Assembly: GCA_963556495.2 (NCBI GenBank)
Contig: OY747705.1
Coordinates: 20,760,001 to 20,824,000 of the forward strand
Length of the DNA: 64,000 nt
DNA from: Valencia hispanica
Lineage: Eukaryota > Chordata > Actinopteri > Cyprinodontiformes > Valenciidae
Direction: 5' to 3'
This document shows positions 10,191 through 37,040 of this stretch, one piece after another. The notes under the pieces were generated by a model, which saw nothing but the letters and a program-made list of their open reading frames with translations, ran no database searches and had not been told where the DNA came from. Each line of letters starts with the position of its first letter. Within the stretch, counting starts at the first letter, position 1. The position numbers and the translations under genes were made by a program.

Positions 10191-10483
10191 GCAAATTTAA
10201 GCTACATTACCAAAATATTCCTATTTTGCCAGGTCTAGATGTAGAATAGCATAAATTTTTTAACATGCCCATACTGCTTTTTCAATTAGAAAATGTTAAT
10301 CACTATTTTATTTAAAAAAATGATCCAATATAATAAATTAATTAATAAAAAAATCCATATTTAATTCTAAAATTATTTAAATACTCTGAGATGGTCATGT
10401 CTACATATGGAATTCTGTTCTTATTTCCATATGCCTTGATCAAGAACTTTTTCAATAATGAATTGTTAACTGTTAACCATCCC

Positions 10484-10771
10484 GATCATAACTGGTGGGT
10501 TGATGGTTTGAACCCCCGCTCCATTTGTCTCGGTCGTTGTGTCCTTGTGCAAGACACTTCATCAGCCTTGCCTGGTGGTGGTCAGAGGGCCCAGTGGCGC
10601 CTGTGTGTATGGCAGCCTCGTGTCTATTAGTAACATGCCCCAGGGAAACTGTGGCTACAATGTAGCTTACCGCCATCACCGTGTGAATATGTGTGTGAAT
10701 AGGTGAATGACTGAATGAAGTGTAAAGCCTTTGTGGTCCTCCAACTGAAAAAGCACTGTACATTGCTGGCC
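10484..10771 (+). mobile_element. tRNA-type SINE inserted in the tandem array
   Basis: It contains the B-box-like GGTTTGAACCC and the blocks 'ccttgtgcaagacacttca', 'ccccagggaaactgtggctac' and 'gtgtgaataggtgaatgactgaatg'. These match the copy at 45715-46028 block by block. The interrupted array unit resumes on the right ('ccattttatac'). The 5' A-box part is missing. Confidence 0.6.
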
Positions 10772-11412
10772 ATTTTATACAACAATGACTAAAATTAATA
10801 CATTCATAAGAAAAAACAAATTTAAACAAGAAATTACAAAAATATTCTTAGATGGTCATGTCTACAGTACATATGGAATACCATCCTTTATTTCCATGTC
10901 CCTAGGTAAAAAAATTTCTCAATAAAAAAATATTAATTACCATTTAATGCTAGTTTAAATTATTAAATAAGTCAAAAATCTATTATTTGCAAAGAAATTA
11001 CCAACATATTTTTTAGATGGTCATGTCTACATGTGTAAACCTATCCTGTATTTCCATGTCCATAAATCAAACTAATCGTCAATGAAAACTGTTAACCACC
11101 CATTTTGTGCCATAGAGATAGATATGAATGAATTCATATAAAATCCATGTTTCATCAAGAATTTACCAACATAGTCTCAGATAGTCATGTCTACATCTGG
11201 AATAATCTAATTTTATTTCCATCTCCCTAGATAGAACCCATTAAAAAAATGTTTTTATCTGCCATTCAAGACCATTTTGATAAAAATGAATAAATTCACA
11301 AAAAATCCATTCCTTATCTAAAATTCTCAAAATATTTTCAGATGACTAATTGTGCATCTGCTACAAGCTTGAGCATTACGATGTTTGCTGGACACAGAAT
11401 CATTGATTCCTT

Positions 11413-11496
11413 AAAAATCAACCAGTTTTATCTAAAATTCTGAAGACATTCTCAAATGATCAGGCCTGTATGCTGTACATGATGCATTATTTTCTG
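11413..11496 (+). repeat. Target-site duplication, left copy (80-84 bp)
   Basis: The 80 bases 11417-11496 are identical to 19601-19680. Up to four extra A's can be added on the left, where the repeat merges with the poly(A) tail of the element. The pair brackets the L1-type LINE exactly. Confidence 0.95.
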
Positions 11497-11534
11497 ATTT
11501 TAGGGAGTGTTGGGGGGATGAGCTGCTGCTAAGA

Positions 11535-11567
11535 TCTCGCGAGAGCTGTGCGTAAGTAATATGGCGG
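11535..11567 (+). promoter_or_regulatory. Candidate internal LINE promoter: CGCG palindrome plus YY1-like site
   Basis: The palindrome TCTCGCGAGA is at 11535-11544, and AATATGGCGG, close to the YY1 consensus, is at 11558-11567. Both lie within 75 bp of the element's 5' end, where an L1 promoter must act. TCTCGCGAGA is a known vertebrate core-promoter motif and mammalian L1 uses YY1 to position its start. Function here is inferred. Confidence 0.5.
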
Positions 11568-11672
11568 TAAACTGGTAAAACAAACAAACTCGGGTAAAAA
11601 CAAACCATAACATTCGAGCCAAATATAGCAAACGTTTGATAATAATAACCATTATTTTGTATTTCTCCATAA

Positions 11673-12492
11673 AACAAACTAGATGAGGAAACCTTGGACA
11701 GCCTGGAAAGCTACTTGGACGAGTGCTTTGACAACATTGTTATGGGCAAGCCAAAGAAATCCACCTCTGCTGTGCCGACAAGCACACCATCACAAAAACG
11801 CACCCGTTCTGAGGCCAGCACCTCCACAATCTCTCCAGAGAAAAGCTACAGCGATGTCCTGCACTCAATAGATAAGAAGCTAACCAGCCTAGACGCCCGT
11901 CTGGGCCTGGTTGAGGTTCTCCATAAAGAATTTCAAGCTCTAAGGGAATCCCTGGAGTTCAGCCAACAACAGGTAGCATCGCTCGCTGCAGAAAACCAAA
12001 CGCTTAGGGAGAGTGTAAAGAAACTCACCGAGGGGATGACGCAGCTGTCCGGAGAAAGTAAGAGGATGAAAGAAACTATCTTGGATATACAGGCCAGGGG
12101 AATGCGGGACAATCTTGTTTTTTTCGGGATCCCAGAACAGGCTGAGGACGACGCTGAATCCACCGTCTGAGATGGTAAAAAACATCACTTTTCACCGCGT
12201 CCACCGGCTCGGAGGTAAGAAGCCCAACAACAGCCTGCCGCGACCTATTGTTGCTAAATTCGAGCATTACAAGCAAAAAGAGCAGGTCAGAGGCCGGGGC
12301 AGAGAGCTGCGGGGAACGAATTACAGCGTTAACGATCAATATCCGAAGGAAATCCTGGATAGAAGGCGCGTTTTGTTCCCAATCAGGAAGAAATATATCA
12401 GTGAAGGCACCAGAGCTACAGTAGCGGTAGATAAACTGTATGTTAATGGGCAGCTGTTCAGGGACCCCCAGCTTACTCCTTGGCTTTATTAG
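11673..12492 (+). pseudogene. LINE ORF1 (L1-type RNA-binding protein), frame-broken
   Basis: ORF1 proteins are RNA chaperones that coat LINE RNA. The first part (open from 11673, to 12170) has a Ser/Thr/Pro-rich head and a long heptad-like helix (about 11860-12090, LREXL-type repeats), then MRDNLVFFGIP, the start of the L1 RRM domain. It ends at a TGA at about 12168. The second part, readable in another frame to 12492, continues with ITFHRVHRLG, RPIVAKFEHY, RRRVLFPIRKKY and a final DPQLTPWLY-like end, typical of the L1 RRM/C-terminal domain. A small deletion with frameshift near 12160-12175 separates the two. No ATG is in frame at the head; the first in-frame ATG is at 11742. Confidence 0.85.
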
Positions 12493-12494
12493 TC

Positions 12495-12896
12495 ATGTAA
12501 CACTGGTCAGATAAGAGTTGTTTTATCAGTCAACCATAATCTAATGTTAGCACAGCTCTGTAAAGTTGTTTACATCACTCAATGTGGGCGGGGCCAGGGC
12601 TAAGCACTGGGATACTGGCTCTTTTTTCTTTTCTCATCTTCACATGTCTATCACCAAATGTCTTTGTCACTCCTTTTTCCTTCTTTTATCACTCACACAC
12701 ACACATCATTTTTTCATAACATAACTATTTCTTTCTCTCTCACCCTTCACACCTTCACAACTTTCTTCTATTTCTCTCTTTCTTATATCTCGGCTTTTGG
12801 ATTTTCAATCAGGCAACCCCAAGCAAAAACTAATGATGCACCTGTGTTTATCTGTTTCTATGGTGATATGGACTTTACAACTTTTATCTCAAAACT
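12495..12896 (+). other. Inter-ORF spacer of the LINE
   Basis: This is non-coding sequence between ORF1 and ORF2. The first half is ordinary; from about 12615 it is strongly pyrimidine-rich (TTTCTCTC and CACACAC tracts). I see no feature beyond that. Confidence 0.6.
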
Positions 12897-15800
12897 ATGA
12901 CTACTCTAAGGTTTGTCACATGGAATGTTCATGGAGCTGGCACCAGAGAGAAAAGAGTTAAGATTTTTAACCAGCTTAAAAGATTGAAGGCAGATGTCGT
13001 CTTATTACAAGAAACCCATAAATCTACCTCAGCTGCAGATGATCTTAAATCCCCTGAGTTTCCTAATGTGTTTTCTGCATGCTATAACTCCAGACAAAGG
13101 GGAGTAGCAATATTAATAAATAAAAATGTAAATTTTACAGTAATAGATACAGTTACAGATCCAGAGGATAGATTTATTATAGTAAAACTATCTATACATA
13201 ACCAAAAATTATGTATTGTCAGTATATATGGTCCAAATGTTGATGACCCCTCATTCTTTCATTCCTTCTTCTCGGTGCTCCTTGAACACATGGATTGCTC
13301 ACTTCTTCTTGGGGGCGACCTCAACTTTGGTTTAAATGAAGAAATAGACAGGCTCAGCACAGCAGGGACTCAGCGCAGCGGGAAATCTATAGATATAGTC
13401 AAACAGTACATGAGCGATTATGGACTTTGTGATGCATGGCGATCTCTTCACCCCAATGACAAAAAATATACTTTCTTCTCAAATGTCCACCATTCATATT
13501 CTCGACTGGATTATTTGTTAGTCAGCAGCTCACTGTTGACTGACATTTCAGACACTGAGATACACCCTATAGCTGTTAGCGATCATGCTCCTGTTTCTCT
13601 AACTTTAGTAAATAAAACAGAAACACCTCAAAGCAAAAATTGGAGATTTAATATATCCTTACTTAAGGATAAAGAATTTATTAAATATTTCGAAAAAGAG
13701 TGGGCCTCATATTTGGAATATAACGACCTCCCTGGTACGTCGCCATCCATTCTTTGGGAGGCAGGAAAAGCTGTGATTAGAGGTAAAATAATCTCATTCT
13801 CATCAAATAAAAAGAAAATGGAAAGAAAACGTATTCAGGAATTAGAAGAAACTATTAATTCATTAGAAGCTTCTCTAGATGAGGAGAGACTAGGCAAAAT
13901 CCTTAAAGCAAAGCTAGAATTAAATCAAATTATCATAAACAGACCCAGTTCTTAATTCAAAGACTTAGGATAGAAAACTTTGAACAAGGTAATAAATCAG
14001 GTAGATTTTTGGCTAAGCAGCTTAAAATTAATAAAGAAAAAGCAACTATATCTGCTATTAAAGATCAGACCGGGAATACAGTATATGATCCTGGAAGAAT
14101 AAACAACACATTTAAAGAATTTTACAAGGCTTTATACTTACCAGAGATAAATCCATTGGATCATGAAATTGAACAATTTTTTGATAACATAACACTACCT
14201 AAATTATCTGAAAGTCAAGCGATGGCCCTGGATTCACCACTAACTGCGGCTGAACTCCAGGAGGCCCTCCAAGGCATGCCCAATAATAAGGCCCCAGGCC
14301 CAGATGGATTTCCAGCAGAGTTCTATAAAGAATTCTGGAATATTCTGGCACCAACATTCCACAGAATGCTGCAGGAAACCAAGGAAAATGGCAGACTCCC
14401 ACCAAATATGAATTCTGCCTACATTAGTCTTCTACTAAAATCAGGTAAAGACCCTTTGTTTCCTACCAGCTATCGTCCCATATCCCTTATTAATGTTGAT
14501 CTTAAAATAATCTGCAAAGCCCTCGCAAAAAGGATAGAGAAAGTAACCCCTCTTATAATACATCCTGATCAAACTGGTTTTATTCATCCACAAATTCACG
14601 TAGATTAATAGATTTAATAGATTTTTCTTACTGTAAAAACATTAAAACTAATATATTATCTTTAGATGCAGAAAAAGCATTTGATAGAGTTAACTGGAAA
14701 TTCTTATTTGTAACCTTACATAAATTTGGCTTTGGAAATTCTTTTATAAACTGGTTGAAAATATTATACAGTTCACCAACAGCATGTATCAGGACAAATA
14801 ACCAAACATCATCTAGGTTTTATCTTCAGAGAGGTACCAGGCAGGGATGTCCTCTCTCTCCCTCCCTGTTTGCTATTTTTATTGAACCACTAGCTGCAGC
14901 GATCAGGCAAACTCACAATATTAAAGGCATAAAATGCAATAACATAGAACATAAAATCAGTCTATATGCAGATGATGTATTACTTTTTCTCCAGCATTCA
15001 CAAACCTCTTTCTCTCAGGTAATCGGGTTGATAAACTCTTACTCAAATGTTTCAGATTATTCTATAAATTGGTTAAAATCTACAGTTCTTCCAATCAATT
15101 GTTCTGTCCAGAATCCAACTAATACACAACTACAGTCAGGGAATATTACCTATTTAGGTATCAATGTCTCACCAAGACTGGCAGATTTAATAACGCTAAA
15201 CTACATCCCACTTTTAAAAAAAGTGGAAGATGATCTTGCTAGATGGAAATCTCTACCCATATCACTTATGGGAAGGGTTGCTTCAATAAAGATGATGGTT
15301 TTGCCCAGAATCAACTACTTATTCTCAATGATCCCAAGTAAACCATCACTAGACTGGTTTAGATCTCTGGACTCCTCTATCTCTAAATTTCTTTGGAAAG
15401 ATATACCCCCAAGTATCAGCTTAAAAACACTGCAGAAGACCAAAGAAAAAGGAGGTCTAGATCTACCAAACTTCCATCATTATTTCTTAGCCAACAGGCT
15501 CCAATACATCTCAAGATGGTTAAAACATAGCTACCTAGACGAGTCCTGGATAGACGTAGAAAAGACACTATGTAATAAGATAAAACTTTCAGACCTACCA
15601 TTTATTAGCTCAAATATAAAACAATATGAATGCTTTAAAAGCATAAATATCAGCTCCTCTCTGACAGCATGGTGGGAGTTTCTAAAAATGACAGAGTCCA
15701 CAATAATCCCTTGCAGACGTACACCCATCTGGAATAACCCCGACATCTTGCAAAAAAAATTTATGATAAGTTTCCCAGTCTGGAGGTGCAATGGAATTGA

Positions 15801-16490
15801 ATACCTGGAACATATATTTGAAGGAACAGACTTTATCCCATTTAATACATTAATTACACAATATGGAATTGATAAAAACAAATTCTTAGAATATCAACAA
15901 ATTAAATCTATTATTAAAGGTAAATTTAGGCTCAATACAGCTGAATTACAAATTCCAGCAAGAGTTTTAGATTTTCTTAATCTCAACCCCCCCAAATTGC
16001 TGTCTAAAATATACAAAACTTTATCTACATTAGATGAATCAATAGCCATCCCTATTTCAAAATGGGAAGGGGATTTATCAGCCAGCTTTGACCAAAACGT
16101 CTGGTCTCAGATATGTTTAAGAACCTTTAAAATAACAAAAAATCCTCATTTGCAATTAATACAATACAAAATCCTTCATAGAGTATACTATACAGGTCAA
16201 CGAATGTTTAGGATGGGTTTTACATCGTCTAATACCTGCTTACAATGAACAAGCAATATACCAGATACTTATGTTCATGCGCTTTGGTTCTGTCCACCTG
16301 TTAAGAAATTTTGGTGCCAGATATGTGAGGACTTATCAAAGTGTCTGAAATGTAACATCCCACCATCTCCCTCAATTTGCCTGTTAGGAAATTTAAATGA
16401 TGTCATCATGGACACAAAATCAGTTCTAATGGTTACATTGCCTTATGCATCGCTAAGAAAACTATCCTCCTGAACTGGCCTTGGGGGGGT
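12897..16490 (+). pseudogene. LINE ORF2: APE endonuclease plus reverse transcriptase, frame-broken
   Basis: ORF2 nicks DNA and copies LINE RNA at the nick. It starts at ATG 12897. The endonuclease is seen as FVTWNVHG, LLQETH, LLGGDLNFG, SRLDYLLVS and AVSDHAPVSL, all intact. Reverse transcriptase follows with NNKAPGPDGFPAEFYK, SYRPISLINVD, motif A LSLDAEKAFDRV, motif B GTRQGCPLSPSLF and motif C YADDVLLFL, so the catalytic Asp residues are present. The C-terminus has LQIPARVL and a Cys/His region ending HALWFCPPVKKFW. Breaks: frameshift at about 13945, frameshift at about 14590, a TGA at 16246-16248 where the family usually has Cys, and a frameshift near 16440 before the terminal KKTILLNW. All look like one-base changes. 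No single frame covers the protein. Confidence 0.92.
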
Positions 16491-19400
16491 TGCACTGGCG
16501 GACATGGGTTACTGGCCTGGTGGCCGTTCTGCGCCTGGGTAGGGTCTGGGGTGGGCCTGGGGATTCGGGGCTTGGGGGCGCCGCACCCCTTAGCTGTGGT
16601 CCTGGCTGGGGGTCGGCCGGCGTGGGGTCTCTGTTGGCTGTGGGGGTCGGGGCCGGCCAGCGGCCGGCATGTGCAGCTGCCTCTCTCTTTTTCTCTGGGC
16701 CAATTGTCATCGCCGGTCCCTGTTTGGCGTCTCGCCTTGTTTGCTGGTTGGGGTGCCTGGCTGCTGGTCGCGGCAGCTGGGTGGCGTTTCTGGGCCGGAT
16801 CAGTCCTTTTTTGCGCTGGACTCGGCTCCTGGGTCTTGGTCTTTGTGCGGGGCGCTGGGGTTGGGCATTTGGCCAGGTTCGGTCGGACTTGCGGGTGGAC
16901 TGGCCGGGTGGTGGGCGTGCAGGGCAGGTGGGTGGGGCGCTGGGTTTGGCCTCCTGCCGGGCCGTCGAGCAACAGTCGTCGCTCCACAAGAAGTGAGGCT
17001 GGTGGATGTCGGCCTGGTGGGTCGAACTCAACCTGGGTGTCAAGTGTCTTTTGTGTTTTGAGAGTAGAGCGAATGTCAGGGTGGGTTTAGTTCCCCTTCT
17101 GGGATGGGGCTGGGGGGACTGCCTTGGGGTCCATGGGGCTTTGTGGTGCTGTGGCCGTGGGCCCCGGGTCGAACGTGCCATGGCCTCCCTCCCCTGGTGG
17201 ATCCCGGTGAACAGCGGTGCCTATTGGGTTGCGTGGGGGAGCTGGCTCCCTGGGAAGACATTTTGTCTCCCAGTCCTTCCCTCCCCATCCCTGGACACTT
17301 CTGTCCACCCACTCCATCACTTTACCACTCATATAGGGTCTTGGGGCATGGGCACATCACTGGGGTGAAAGGAGGGGCTTCCCTCCTCGCTATCCGGTGG
17401 TGTCCTGGGTCCCAATTTTAATATACAACTTAGGCACTCCCACTTATAACATTCTCACGCGACACATATGTAGGGACTTTGGGGTGGGCACACTTTTCGG
17501 CATCCAGAGGGGGAGCGGTTCAATCAGCTTCACCTCTGGTGCCGGTGCCCACTGTTAAACCACATATAGACACTGAGGGCTCGGGGTGGGGGTTGGGGGA
17601 TGTGTGACTGCCTTCCCCACATCCCACCCCTCTGTTTTAAATGCACATTATAACAACACGCATCAACACCATACTCGAGCGGGAGGATGGAGGCTAGGGG
17701 TCTTTTCACACCCCTGTTCGCTACGGGCCATCAGGGGTTGGGGTCCGGAGGAGGAACAGGCGGTCTGGTCGGGGTCCTGGGCTGTCGGGCTGCTTTGCCA
17801 CTGTGGGGCCCTTGGCGGTCTGCTTCTATCCGTCCTAGAAGGTAGGGGGTCCATCACCCAGGTCTGGGGACTGGTGGCTCTACTGGGGCATCGGTACCTG
17901 GACCTGGGAGCATAAAGTGTGTATGGGGTGTGTGAGTGAGGGTACAGCGTCATTTTTTTGGGTGTCTTGGTGAGTCAGTGAGAATGTATGGGTTTAAGAG
18001 GGAGGGAACGTATGACTGTGTCTGTATGTCTTTGTCTACCTGTCAGGTTGGATCTTGGTCTGCCCCCTCGCCTGGCGCACCTCAAGCCTTACACTTAATG
18101 GGGGTCCTATTTCCCCTCTGTCACTCCCCGCCGGTGACGGGGGCCCCTGCCTGCTGGTGCATCGGTGGTCAATCCGGTTCGGACCTGGTGCGTGCCTGGC
18201 CGGGCCTGGGGGGGCCGGTGTGTCGGTCGGCCGGTGTGTCGGTCGGCCGATGCGCTGGGCCGATATCTTCCTTTGGTTGGTTGGGGCACCTCTTTGGGGG
18301 TTGCCAGGTTTGGGATTGTTGGGTGGTGCCTGCTCGGTGGCTCGGCGGGATGCAGATCCGGCGTCTCTGCTCGTTTGATCACCTGTTCTGTGCGCACCGT
18401 GCATGGCTGGTTCATTGGCGGGTTGGACCGGCCCTGGCCCTCGTTGAATGCCTGGTCTCGGCGCCCTGCGTTGCGCGGGATCGGGACCTGGGAGCTGGTA
18501 CAACTTGGTGTCCAGATGCTGGCTGAGCCCGGCCTGGGGATGCTGTCCGTCCCCTGCGGCTATTGGTGGGGCGCTGGGATGTTGGCGGTGGGGATTGGCC
18601 TAGGGTGGAGGCGGCGTGTGGTGGCCGGCCCTGCAGTGCTGGGGGCCCCTCGTCGGCCGGTCCCTTGTTGGGTCCCTGCTGGGGGCTGGGGTGCCCCTGG
18701 GCCCCGGCTCTCCCGGTCCATTGACTGGCCCGCCCTGGCGCGGCCGGTTGCCGGCAGGGCCCGTGGGCTCGTCACTGCTGCCCCCCGGGCCCCTGCATAG
18801 TGGCCGCTGGATGTTCCCCTGGGGTTCTCCTTTGCTCCACTCTTGGGGGATGCGGTCGGCCCCACCCGGGTCCGCCTGGGGCTCTGGGGGTCCTTTGGAC
18901 GTCTTTGCTCCGATCTCCTTCATGTCTGCATCGATTCCTGGGAGACGGATTGATGCCTGCTCACACCAGCTATCGAACACTCTTATGGAGAAACCTTATA
19001 TGCACCAGCATGCTAACACACACACGTAGATGTGGGGTCTCTGGTGTTTAAGGATATATTCTTGGGCTGAGGTTATCATTACTAGAGCTTAATTAATCGA
19101 TACCATGAGTTTTTCTGTGACGTTGTTGTTGTATTTTTATATCTATTTTTGTGTGATGTGGTTGTGTAATTCTTAGTTCACAATGTTTGGTTTGTTTTGT
19201 CGATGTTCCTTTTTCGTGTTTTGTTTTGTTTTTTCCGTCTCTCTCTGCCGTCCTGTGGGTATGGAGGCAGACTTCAATGTCTTCCTGTGTTTTCTTTGTT
19301 CCCCTTCCTCTCTTGTATTTTCAACTCACCATCTCTCTTGACTTTTTGTTTCCTACCTCTCTTCTTTATCTTCCTTCTTTCTTCTCCTTAATTTTCCGTC

Positions 19401-19583
19401 TCCGTGTCCATAACATCAGGAAATAAAAACCCCAACCATTCATAATAAAGATTTTTCACACATATATCAAGTGGAGGACTATAGCAAAAGCTGTACTGCT
19501 CCGCTTGTGAAAGTAAATCTGTTGGGCTTCTACTTGGTACTCGGACACCAATTCTGAGCTCCACACTGCCAAACAGGACACAT
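16490..19583 (+). other. Long GC-rich 3' region of the LINE
   Basis: From about 16490 to 19020 the plus strand becomes very G-rich with many GGGG and GGCC runs, unlike the AT-rich ORF2 and the surrounding genome. Stop codons are rare simply because of composition, so long open frames appear on both strands; they show no conserved domain and I do not call them genes. After 19080 it turns T/C-rich. AATAAA occurs at 19422 and 19444. The segment 18750-19420 recurs at 36.1 kb. Confidence 0.8.
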
Positions 19584-19596
19584 AAAAAAAAAAAAA

Positions 19597-19680
19597 AAAA
19601 ATCAACCAGTTTTATCTAAAATTCTGAAGACATTCTCAAATGATCAGGCCTGTATGCTGTACATGATGCATTATTTTCTG
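19597..19680 (+). repeat. Target-site duplication, right copy (80-84 bp)
   Basis: Identical to 11417-11496 over 80 bases. It starts directly after (and overlaps by A's with) the LINE poly(A) tail and ends where the two flanks diverge ('tttctgttttgc' here against 'tttctgatttta' on the left). Confidence 0.95.
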
Positions 19681-27044: not shown

Positions 27045-27785
27045 TGAATCAAATCAAACTTTATTTATAAAGCGCTTTTCATACAAGAACTTGGAGCACA
27101 AAGTGCTTTACAGATTAAAATGACCCCACATAAACCACATTCCCATCTCTCCCCCACAGATTTAAAAGCATGGTCACAGTTATACCCCCGTCCCCCCACC
27201 CCGACTCCCATGCACACACACAGTTAAAAGCAACAGTAAAAAAGGACATTGGGCCGAATGCAGATGAACCATGCAACAAAACGTCATCAGAGGAGCCATC
27301 TGCACCGGCAGCGATAGATCAACAGCAGAAGCCGAGGCACCGACACAGGGCGCCCAGTGGAGGCAAGGCCAAGACCCCCACCTCCACCCAAGCTCTACCT
27401 GGGGAACCCCCGAGGCAGCTACAGCCGACCACTGCTCCCAGGGCAGAAAGCTCCCACAGAGGAAACACTGGAACGGGAATTTAGATAAATTAAACGGACA
27501 GTAATAGATAATAATCAGTTAAAAGCTAGGCTAAAAAGGTGAGTCTTGAGCCTGCTCTTAAAAACATGAACGTTCTCCACGGCCCTGAGGCCCTCTGGCA
27601 GCCTGTTCCAGAGGTGAGGGAACAAAAAACTGGAAAGACGCCTCACCATGAGTGCGTGTTCTGACTTTTGGGATGACAAGGAAGAAGAGCCCAGAGACCG
27701 CGAAGGGTCATATGGTAAAAGCAGTTCAGAGAGATAAAAAAGGCCCAAGACCAATAAGACACTTAAAAACCATTAAATGAACCTT
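27045..27785 (-). mobile_element. L2-like LINE 3' end, minus strand
   Basis: The minus strand at 27754-27515 encodes the C-terminal tail of an L2/CR1-type reverse transcriptase (LLLPYDPSRSLGSS, FPHLWNRLPEGLRAV, FKSRLKTHLFSLAFN) and then a 3' UTR that ends with 'aaagcgctttataaataaagtttgatttgatt' near 27045. The 5' part is truncated. The 3' UTR (27045-27490) is shared with copies at 27837-28290 and 63094-64000. Confidence 0.7.
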
Positions 27786-32511: not shown

Positions 32512-32663
32512 CTTCCATGAAGTTGTCCCCAAAAATATTTGAACACATAATACAGTATTATCCAATAAAAGTACGACACAAACTATACAAATTACCATGC
32601 ACCATGCAGATTTTCAGTTCAGCTCGTTTGGATTGCATATTAATTGAAATGCATAAAAAAAAA

Positions 32664-33486
32664 TACTGCTGAATATGTTACCATTTTGGCTTCATCGGAA
32701 CGTGATCTACAGCTTTCGCTGGAGCGGTTCGCAGCCGAGTGTGAAGCGGCTGGGATGAGAATCAGCACCTCCAAATCTGAGGCCATGGTCTTGAGCCAGA
32801 AAAGGGTGGGGTGCCTTCTCTGGGTCGGGGATGGGGTCCTTCCCCAAGTGGAGGAGTTTAAGTATCTGGAGGTCTTGTTCACGAATGAGGGAAAAATGGA
32901 GCGGGAGATCGATAGACGGATTGGTGGGGCATCGGCAGTTATGCGGGCGCTCTACCGGTCTGTCGTGGTGAAGAGAGAGCTGAGCCGAAAGGCGAAGCTC
33001 TCGATTTACCGGTCGATCTACGTTCCTACCCTCATTCATGGTCACGAACTCTGGGTGATGACCGAAAGAACGAGATCACGGATACAAGCGGCTGAAATGA
33101 GTTTCCTCCGCAGAGTGTCTGGGCTCTCCCTTAGAGATAGGGTGAGAAGCTCAGTCCTCCGGAGGGGGCTCAGAGTAGAGCCGCTGCTTCTCCACATTGA
33201 GAGGTGTTAGTTGAGGTGGCTCGGGCATCTGGTCAGGATGCCTCCTGGACGCCTCCCTGGTGAGGTGTTTCAGGCACGTCTCACCGGGAGGAGGCCCAGG
33301 GGAAGGCCCAGGACACGCTGGGGGGACTATGTTTCTCGGCTGGCCTGGGAACGTCTTGAGATTCCTCCCGAGGAGCTGGAACAAGTGGCTGGGGAGAGGG
33401 AAGTCTGGGTCTCTTTGCTTAGGCTGTTGCCCCCGCGTCCCGACCCCGGATAAGCGGAAGAAAATGGTTGGATGGATGGATGGATG
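32664..33486 (+). mobile_element. Rex3 (RTE clade) LINE, 5'-truncated 3' end
   Basis: The frame runs from the sequence just after the reverse transcriptase catalytic YADD/FADD block (LASSERDLQ, RFAAECEAAGMRISTSKSEAM) through EEFKYL, SVVVKRELSRKAKLSIYRSIYVPTL, RTRSRIQAAEMSFLRRVSGLSLRDRVRSS to one TAG at about 33208 and then RWLGHLVRMPPGRLPGEVF and LAWERL to a stop at 33453. It ends with GGATGGATGGATG at 33472-33486, the usual Rex3 tail. Only one in-frame stop breaks about 260 codons, so this copy is much younger than the one at 235-470. Confidence 0.85.
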
Positions 33487-35280: not shown

Positions 35281-36125
35281 TCCCTGTCATAGAAAAAGAC
35301 CCTTTCAGAGACCCCAGGCAGTAGCATCAGCAAGTGTAACAGGGTTAAAATGTTGTATGATTCCACTTGTCATTACTTTTTATTTTGGTTCATGTAATAT
35401 CGGAGAAACACCCTCTCTGGGTGGTAGGTTGTGAGAAGTGCAGTGGGCTCAGTGATCACATTGCCATTCTGTGAGAAATGGGTACGAAGTTGGTTCAGTT
35501 AAATTAGCACTGTGGTAGATTGTTGTGCATTATTGTCCATTGTCTATAATATAATCACAAATTTGCTGTAATATGTACCAACATCAATTAGGATATTAAG
35601 GAGTTGCACACTGTACATTTTATGAGTTTAAACATAGAGCATGGGAGTAATACATGAGTAGAAAAATCTGCCTGCTTGATGCTAACGTAGCGTGTGATCC
35701 CTCGCAAGATGCTGTATCTGCTGTGATGAGCCTAACCAGATTGTTGACCAGTACATATCTTGTTTCGTCAGATTAAACAGCATTAAACTCCACTCCGTCT
35801 CACGGCCGTGATTCAAACACAACGCATAAGTAAACCGTAGGAAGAACGTGGAGGACGAGCAGAACTGGGCTATCTTGAACTGAACCAAGCCGGACTGATA
35901 CACGGCCAAATTCGGCGTGGTTACACAAGTTTATAAAATGTTGGGAAGTTGGGATAGTCCTTTTTCTTTTCTTCACTCTAGTCTTCCAATGTTACCATAT
36001 GAATGAATGTTACCATACACAGATAAATCTCTTTAGTTTCATCAAAATAAAAGACGTTAAGAAAGATTCCAAACACACACGCAATACAATCCTAAAACAA
36101 CAAAATGTGATGGGGAAACAGCACC

Positions 36126-36433
36126 GTGTTTGCTGAGGGTGGGGCGGAGGGTGGATTGCCGGCAGGGCCTGTGGGCTCGTCGCTGCGGCCCCCCGGGCCC
36201 CTGCATTGTAGCTCCTGGATGTTCCCCCAGGGCTCTCCTCTGCTCCTCTCTTGGGGGTGTGGTAAGCCCTTCGTTGATCCGCCTTGGGCTCCTGTGCTCT
36301 GGGGGTCCTTTGGGTTTCTATGGCTCCGATCTCCTTCGTGTCTGCGTCGATTCCTGGGAGGTGGATCAATGGCTCCTCACACCAGCTATTGAACACTTGT
36401 ATGGAGAAACCTAATGCACCAGCATGGTCATAT

Positions 36434-36464
<31 letters not shown>

Positions 36465-36850
36465 TGTCACACACACACACAGGTGTGGGGAAATCCGGTG
36501 TTTATATATACATTCTTGGGCTTAGGTTACCATTACTAAATCTTGTAATAATCGGTACCATGAGCTTTTCAGTGACGCTGTTATTGTATTCATATATCTA
36601 TTTGTGGGTTGTGGCTGTGCAGTTCTCAGTTTGCATTGTTTGATTTGTTTTTTCGTTGTTTTTTCACTCTCCCTGCCGTCCTGCTGGTGTGGTGGGAGAC
36701 TGTGATGTTTTCTTTGTTCCCTTTCCTTTTTTGTATCTTCCGCTTACCCTCTCCCTCTTAACCTTTTTTCTTTACCTCTCTTCATCTACTTTCTTTCTTC
36801 CCCTTTATTTTCCATCTCCGTGTCCCTGGCCCATTGGAAAAAAGCAAACA
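36126..36850 (+). mobile_element. L1/Tx1-type LINE 3'-region fragment
   Basis: It is collinear with 18740-19420 of the full LINE: 'ccggcagggcc(t/c)gtgggctcgtc', the shared 'gatctccttc(g/a)tgtctgc(g/a)tcgattcctggga' block, an AC repeat (36431-36480), and the pyrimidine-rich end 'tctccgtgtcc'. It lacks the last ~160 bp of the 11-kb copy before poly(A). It is truncated at the 5' side like most LINE copies. Confidence 0.85.
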
Positions 36851-36949
36851 AACCCACAGTAATTTCTAAGAAAGAAATCAGATCAGATGGGACTTAAAAT
36901 TAACTTTTTGGTCTGCATGTAAAATAAGTATAATAAACTATGATACTGA

Positions 36950-37040
36950 ATACAAATTGCCTACAGTGAAGCACGGTGGTGGCAACATCATGTTGTGGGG
37001 AAGCCTTTCTTTAGCAGGGGGAGGGAAATACACACAGTTT
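36950..37040 (+). mobile_element. Small Tc1-like fragment
   Basis: 'gaagcacggtggtggcaacatcatgttgtgggg' and 'agcaggg' match the Tc1 transposase region that includes the second catalytic-strand block. It is only about 90 bp. Confidence 0.5.

Follow-up and report, generated by a model that had tools for sequence, protein, structure and literature searches.

An element of the L1 clade in a fish genome is flanked by a perfect direct repeat of 79 to 84 bp, and we consider it very probable that this near-complete copy arose in a one-off event of ordinary target-primed reverse transcription in which the second nick fell unusually far from the first. The element occupies positions 11497 to 19601 (~8.1 kb including its A tail) on the plus strand of a window of 64,000 nucleotides, the whole stretch of DNA analyzed here. 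Its limits and identity are given by the bounds of the duplication, by its endonuclease and reverse transcriptase domains, and by the presence of a LINE-1 ORF2 protein among its best relatives in the Protein Data Bank (PDB).

The two copies of the repeat, 11413 to 11496 on the 5' side and 19597 to 19680 on the 3' side (both plus strand), are identical at 84 of 84 bases. A preliminary description of this DNA had reported identical flanks of 80 bases, and the identity proved to reach four bases further left. The left copy abuts the start of the element at 11497, and the right copy follows immediately 3' of the poly(A). The first five bases of the duplication are A and are fused with a run of 18 As (19584 to 19601), of which 13 to 18 are the poly(A) of the element. 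Since the As at the start of the left copy are possibly derived from poly(A), the length of the duplication is 79 to 84 bp: the unambiguous part is 79 bp (11418 to 11496, equal to 19602 to 19680), and the full 84 bp applies if the first nick was made at the TT/AAAA site at 11412/11413. Six direct repeats that are exact over 24 or more bases were found in the window, with words of one or two letters excluded from the count, and this pair is the longest of them. The chance expectation for exact 84-base repeats, calculated from base composition, is ~1e-40, and the pair is no chance match. The second-longest repeat, of 51 bp, is located at 27342 and 63790; its members are 36 kb apart and are probably copies of another interspersed repeat.

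The left edge of the duplication carries the signature of the L1 endonuclease. A perfect site on the bottom strand (5'-TTTTT/AA, within 11407 to 11418) marks the start of the left copy, with the first-strand nick between 11412 and 11413. The motif TT|AAAA occurs 78 times on the plus strand in the 64,000 bases of the window, and the chance of the boundary falling at such a motif is ~1 in 800. The presumed position of the second nick (TTTTCTG/TTTTGC) is unlike the first site. Insertion at TT/AAAA with an A tail is as in the L1 clade, and the combination of an L1 endonuclease site, poly(A), and a target-site duplication (TSD) longer than 20 bp places the case in the class of long TSDs; the usual, although not strictly defining, L1 TSD of about 7 to 20 bp is exceeded here with 79 to 84 bp. 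The repeat is most likely a true TSD, as had been proposed at the outset, with the two nicks ~80 bp apart.

The duplicated flanks enclose an L1-type LINE, a further claim of the preliminary description that is borne out by its domains. Pfam identified in ORF2 (12897 to 16478, plus strand) an APE-type endonuclease (PF03372, 3.8e-18) and pieces of a reverse transcriptase (PF00078). This frame is broken and was delimited using open reading frames, Pfam matches, and aligned relatives, its end at 16478 being set by eye. Both pieces are of L1 type, and the endonuclease is closest to that of L1. (i) The endonuclease piece scored 159 bits on LINE-1 ORF2 in the PDB, compared to at most 43.6 bits on chains of AP endonucleases. 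(ii) For the reverse transcriptase piece, the top-scoring chains bearing the names LINE-1 ORF2 and R2 gave 172.9 and 23.3 bits, respectively; 8c8j, labeled simply RNA-directed DNA polymerase, gave 173.7 bits, and 8gh6, labeled simply "reverse transcriptase-like protein," which we take to be R2, gave 24.9 bits. (iii) Searches of a protein database with the endonuclease piece returned 88 matches, 22 of which were annotated with an organism (19 fish and 3 frog); those with the reverse transcriptase piece returned 37, 17 of them with an organism (16 fish and 1 lizard). On the basis of the domains, the PDB scores, the predominance of fish among the matches, and the A run, we classify the element by sequence comparison as an L1-clade LINE, whose host is most probably a teleost. 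Elsewhere in the window, a possible fragment of another reverse transcriptase was noted at 32644 to 33207 (PF00078, E value of 0.0066, below the cut-off).

The copy looks near full-length; its first bases read ATTTTA and may include nucleotides added at the junction. Upstream of ORF2, the list of open reading frames contains an ORF1 region at 11694 to 12492 (plus strand) that consists of two overlapping frames (11694 to 12170 and 12115 to 12492). The first part has a match to PF11559 below the Pfam cut-off (21.2 bits, with 34.3 required), and the second part gave no match in Pfam or PDB. Downstream of ORF2, the 3' untranslated region (plus strand) comprises a GC-rich first part (16479 to 18960) and an AT-richer end (18961 to 19583) with AATAAA at 19422 and 19444. 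The GC-rich block is 2.5 kb long and starts where the ORF2 homology stops; its GC content, measured on 16476 to 18960, is 63%, in comparison to 33 to 34% in the flanks and 35 to 49% in the remaining parts of the element.

Scans of the window at Rfam gathering scores and for tRNAs gave no match. On the minus strand, the segment 1841 to 2323 looks like an exon and matches the RNA recognition motif PF00076; it may resemble a CELF-family RNA-binding protein.

The age of the insertion was assessed from the duplication and from the state of ORF2, the latter by aligning 5 of 16 fetched relatives to the window. These alignments place frame changes near 13907 to 13934 and near 14581 to 14584, and an in-frame stop at 16246 to 16248 across which the alignment of a relative continues in one frame. 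In relative P0090, of which 389 of 446 residues were aligned, the C-terminal end is unmatched beyond 16434; as judged by eye, another frame extends to ~16478, the start of the GC-rich block. The missing C-terminus may be a later deletion or a trait of the family. Because ORF2 is broken in several places, a very young age of the copy does not have to be assumed. The identity of the flanks had been taken to date the insertion as recent. The identity itself stands at 84 of 84 bases, but zero differences over this length bound the pairwise divergence between the copies only to below 3.5% (95% upper bound), and a recent insertion is thus only loosely supported.

A second copy of the family is present in the window at 36156 to 36825, with 72% identity. 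It shares the end of the GC-rich block, and at least this end consequently belongs to the family. The strong similarity between the two copies ends at 19409, ~175 bases before the A run, and for this reason a 3' transduction of the last ~175 bp was considered; the segment from 19410 to 19583, which includes both AATAAA motifs, may be either the native 3' end or such a transduction. The 3' end of the second copy may extend past 36825 (a weak match with a score of 21.5, reached by 5 of 500 shuffles). Its flanks provided no usable TSD: the best exact matches between 36100 to 36165 and 36810 to 36960 were two 6-mers, with the 3' end uncertain. Just past this fragment, the segment 36950 to 37010 may resemble a Tc1/mariner transposase gene and may have cut off the 3' end of the fragment. 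Searches for further copies of the family covered viruses and prokaryotes and are of little information for an element of this kind. With one piece of ORF2, 6 pattern stretches in viral contigs and 22 in prokaryotic contigs were obtained, none of which was confirmed; DNA patterns taken from both ends of the element and from the reverse transcriptase region found nothing in viral contigs, nor did the reverse transcriptase pattern in prokaryotic contigs.

The sequence to the left of the target bears on whether the repeat existed before the insertion. A degenerate tandem array with units of ~165 bp is present at 10329 to 11283 (plus strand), and it served us as a proxy for the empty site. Its similarity is 65 to 88% over pieces of 25 to 77 bp and 68 to 74% over longer alignments, and 32 bp of the target are 84% alike to the preceding array unit. 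If the repeat is a TSD, the empty site should contain a single copy of the 84 bp, followed immediately by TTTTGCTT. A site joined in this way aligned to the array unit 10787 to 10963 with 63% identity (116 of 184 columns); the alignment started at 11391 in the left flank, spanned the 84-bp copy, and took in 70 bp of the right flank. The score of this alignment was 35, a value reached by 2 of 1,000 shuffled right flanks (mean 23.6, best 41) and by 4 of 2,912 other pieces of the window put in place of the right flank (best 40.5). For a two-copy site, the score was 34. We therefore rejected the array as stand-alone proof of a one-copy empty site; what the alignment supports is an unbroken sequence across the right edge only.

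The near-equal scores of the two sites, together with the array in the left flank and the resemblance of the target to its preceding unit, are what could be expected if the 84-bp segment had already been present in tandem and the L1 had come to lie between two units, a possibility raised as a potential refutation in the preliminary description. The array is indeed there, but its pieces are 65 to 88% alike while the target copies are 100% identical, and the layout of the locus fits poorly with an insertion between units: to leave the element between two such copies, the insertion would have had to produce a zero-bp duplication exactly at a unit boundary, with a TT|AAAA motif at that same place, and an ordinary insertion within a tandem pair would yield another arrangement. 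We thus consider a preexisting tandem very improbable. A TSD of ordinary length that was extended later, by local rearrangement or through an error of the assembly, is compatible with data from a single assembly; the extension would have had to end precisely at the 5' end of the element and at the endonuclease site, and we regard it as the least probable of the alternatives considered here.

For a TSD formed at the time of insertion, the length of the stagger has to be compared with what is documented for LINEs; at 84 bp, the duplication is about six times as long as is usual. L1 TSDs peak at 13 to 15 bp, also in zebrafish, and those above 20 bp form a named class (L-TSD); the TSDs of 66 full-length L1s measured 10 to 20 bp, with two exceptions (PMC4245944). 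This norm for full-length elements would by analogy speak against a long stagger here. So would the pattern in a HeLa assay cited by PMC2912911, in which extremely long TSDs accompanied 5'-truncated inserts and 6 of 6 full-length insertions had TSDs of 10 to 17 bp, since the present element is apparently near full-length and yet has a TSD of 84 bp. The frequency of long TSDs differed between cell lines (PMC5223499). In HeLa cells, TSDs of >100 bp made up at most 10% of events, whereas in three lines deficient in nucleotide excision repair (NER) they were found in 4 of 7, 21 of 23, and 22 of 28 events. NER-deficient cells had a median TSD of 1,495 bp; complementation (XPD+ cells) brought the median to 14 bp, with 3 of 9 events still exceeding 100 bp. 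Surveys use or report narrower ranges, namely, 5 to 30 bp (PMC2912911), 10 to 49 bp (PMC13295347), and 10 to 30 bp with 7 to 20 bp for chimeric insertions (PMC13174262), and a high-confidence TSD has a minimum of 10 bp (PMC12458276). All 51 of 51 de novo Alu insertions in human sperm had TSDs of 8 to 18 nt (PMC12633430). Within the parts of the literature surveyed, no TSD of such length was found described for a naturally occurring L1 of a fish.

Three known systems can be set beside the fish element. (i) Members of the vertebrate L1 clade (LINE-1 ORF2 of the PDB and the relatives from Maylandia, Oreochromis, and Pygocentrus) are alike in their APE endonuclease, reverse transcriptase, A tail, TT/AAAA nick site, and flanking direct repeats; the fish element differs from this clade by an 84-bp TSD in place of the 13- to 15-bp peak (PMC4245944), and it may also differ by its ~3.1-kb 3' untranslated region with the GC-rich block. 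(ii) The L-TSD class of human cell lines (PMC4245944, PMC5223499) shares the endonuclease site, the poly(A), and a duplication far above 20 bp, but consists of engineered insertions in cultured cells, whereas the present insertion is resident in a fish genome. (iii) The rotifer element R9 also combines a LINE insertion with a very long duplication (126 bp), but it is specific for rDNA, in contrast to an L1 at a TT/AAAA site that is known here from a single instance (PMC6895275).

The DNA helix repeats every 10.5 bp, and ~80 bp are equivalent to about eight turns. A regular cut at such a distance, with the second nick set ~80 bp off as a rule of the L1 family or of its host, would explain the one perfect 84-bp case. 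That LINEs are capable of long staggers is illustrated by R9 (PMC6895275), and each LINE clade has its own TSD peak (PMC4245944). Against such a rule stand the sample of one, the alignment of the endonuclease and reverse transcriptase pieces to LINE-1 ORF2 across most of their own length, and the L1-clade peak at 13 to 15 bp in human, cow, opossum, and zebrafish (PMC4245944), which argues against a long cut throughout the clade. We consider a rule of this kind highly improbable. It would be just as surprising if natural L1 insertions in the host species systematically carried duplications of ~80 bp, be it due to the family or to the repair background; were this so, systematic long TSDs would have been overlooked by surveys because of their ceilings on TSD length.

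The preferred reading, a single insertion by target-primed reverse transcription, would then proceed as follows. The endonuclease would have nicked the bottom strand at the canonical TTTTT/AA visible in the sequence, and first-strand synthesis would have been primed at this nick by the A tail, as suggested by the position of the tail directly at the nick. The length of the duplication implies a cut of the top strand ~84 bp downstream, where a distance of ~15 bp would be usual, and fill-in of the 84-nt stagger would have generated the duplication. Most likely, the long stagger reflects a chance distant second nick or break, dependent on host repair, in a single event rather than a trait of the LINE family. 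The case looks like an uncommon outcome already seen in cell culture, with no evidence of a new mechanism.

How LINEs select the place of the second-strand cut during integration is poorly understood (PMC2881922, PMC6895275), and the choice of the second nick has been described as not clear (PMC2881922). A single case leaves the overall picture unchanged; it is, at the same time, a reason to raise the TSD ceilings of 30 to 49 bp that surveys apply. The 84-bp duplication suggests that the long-TSD outcome of cell lines also arises naturally in a fish.
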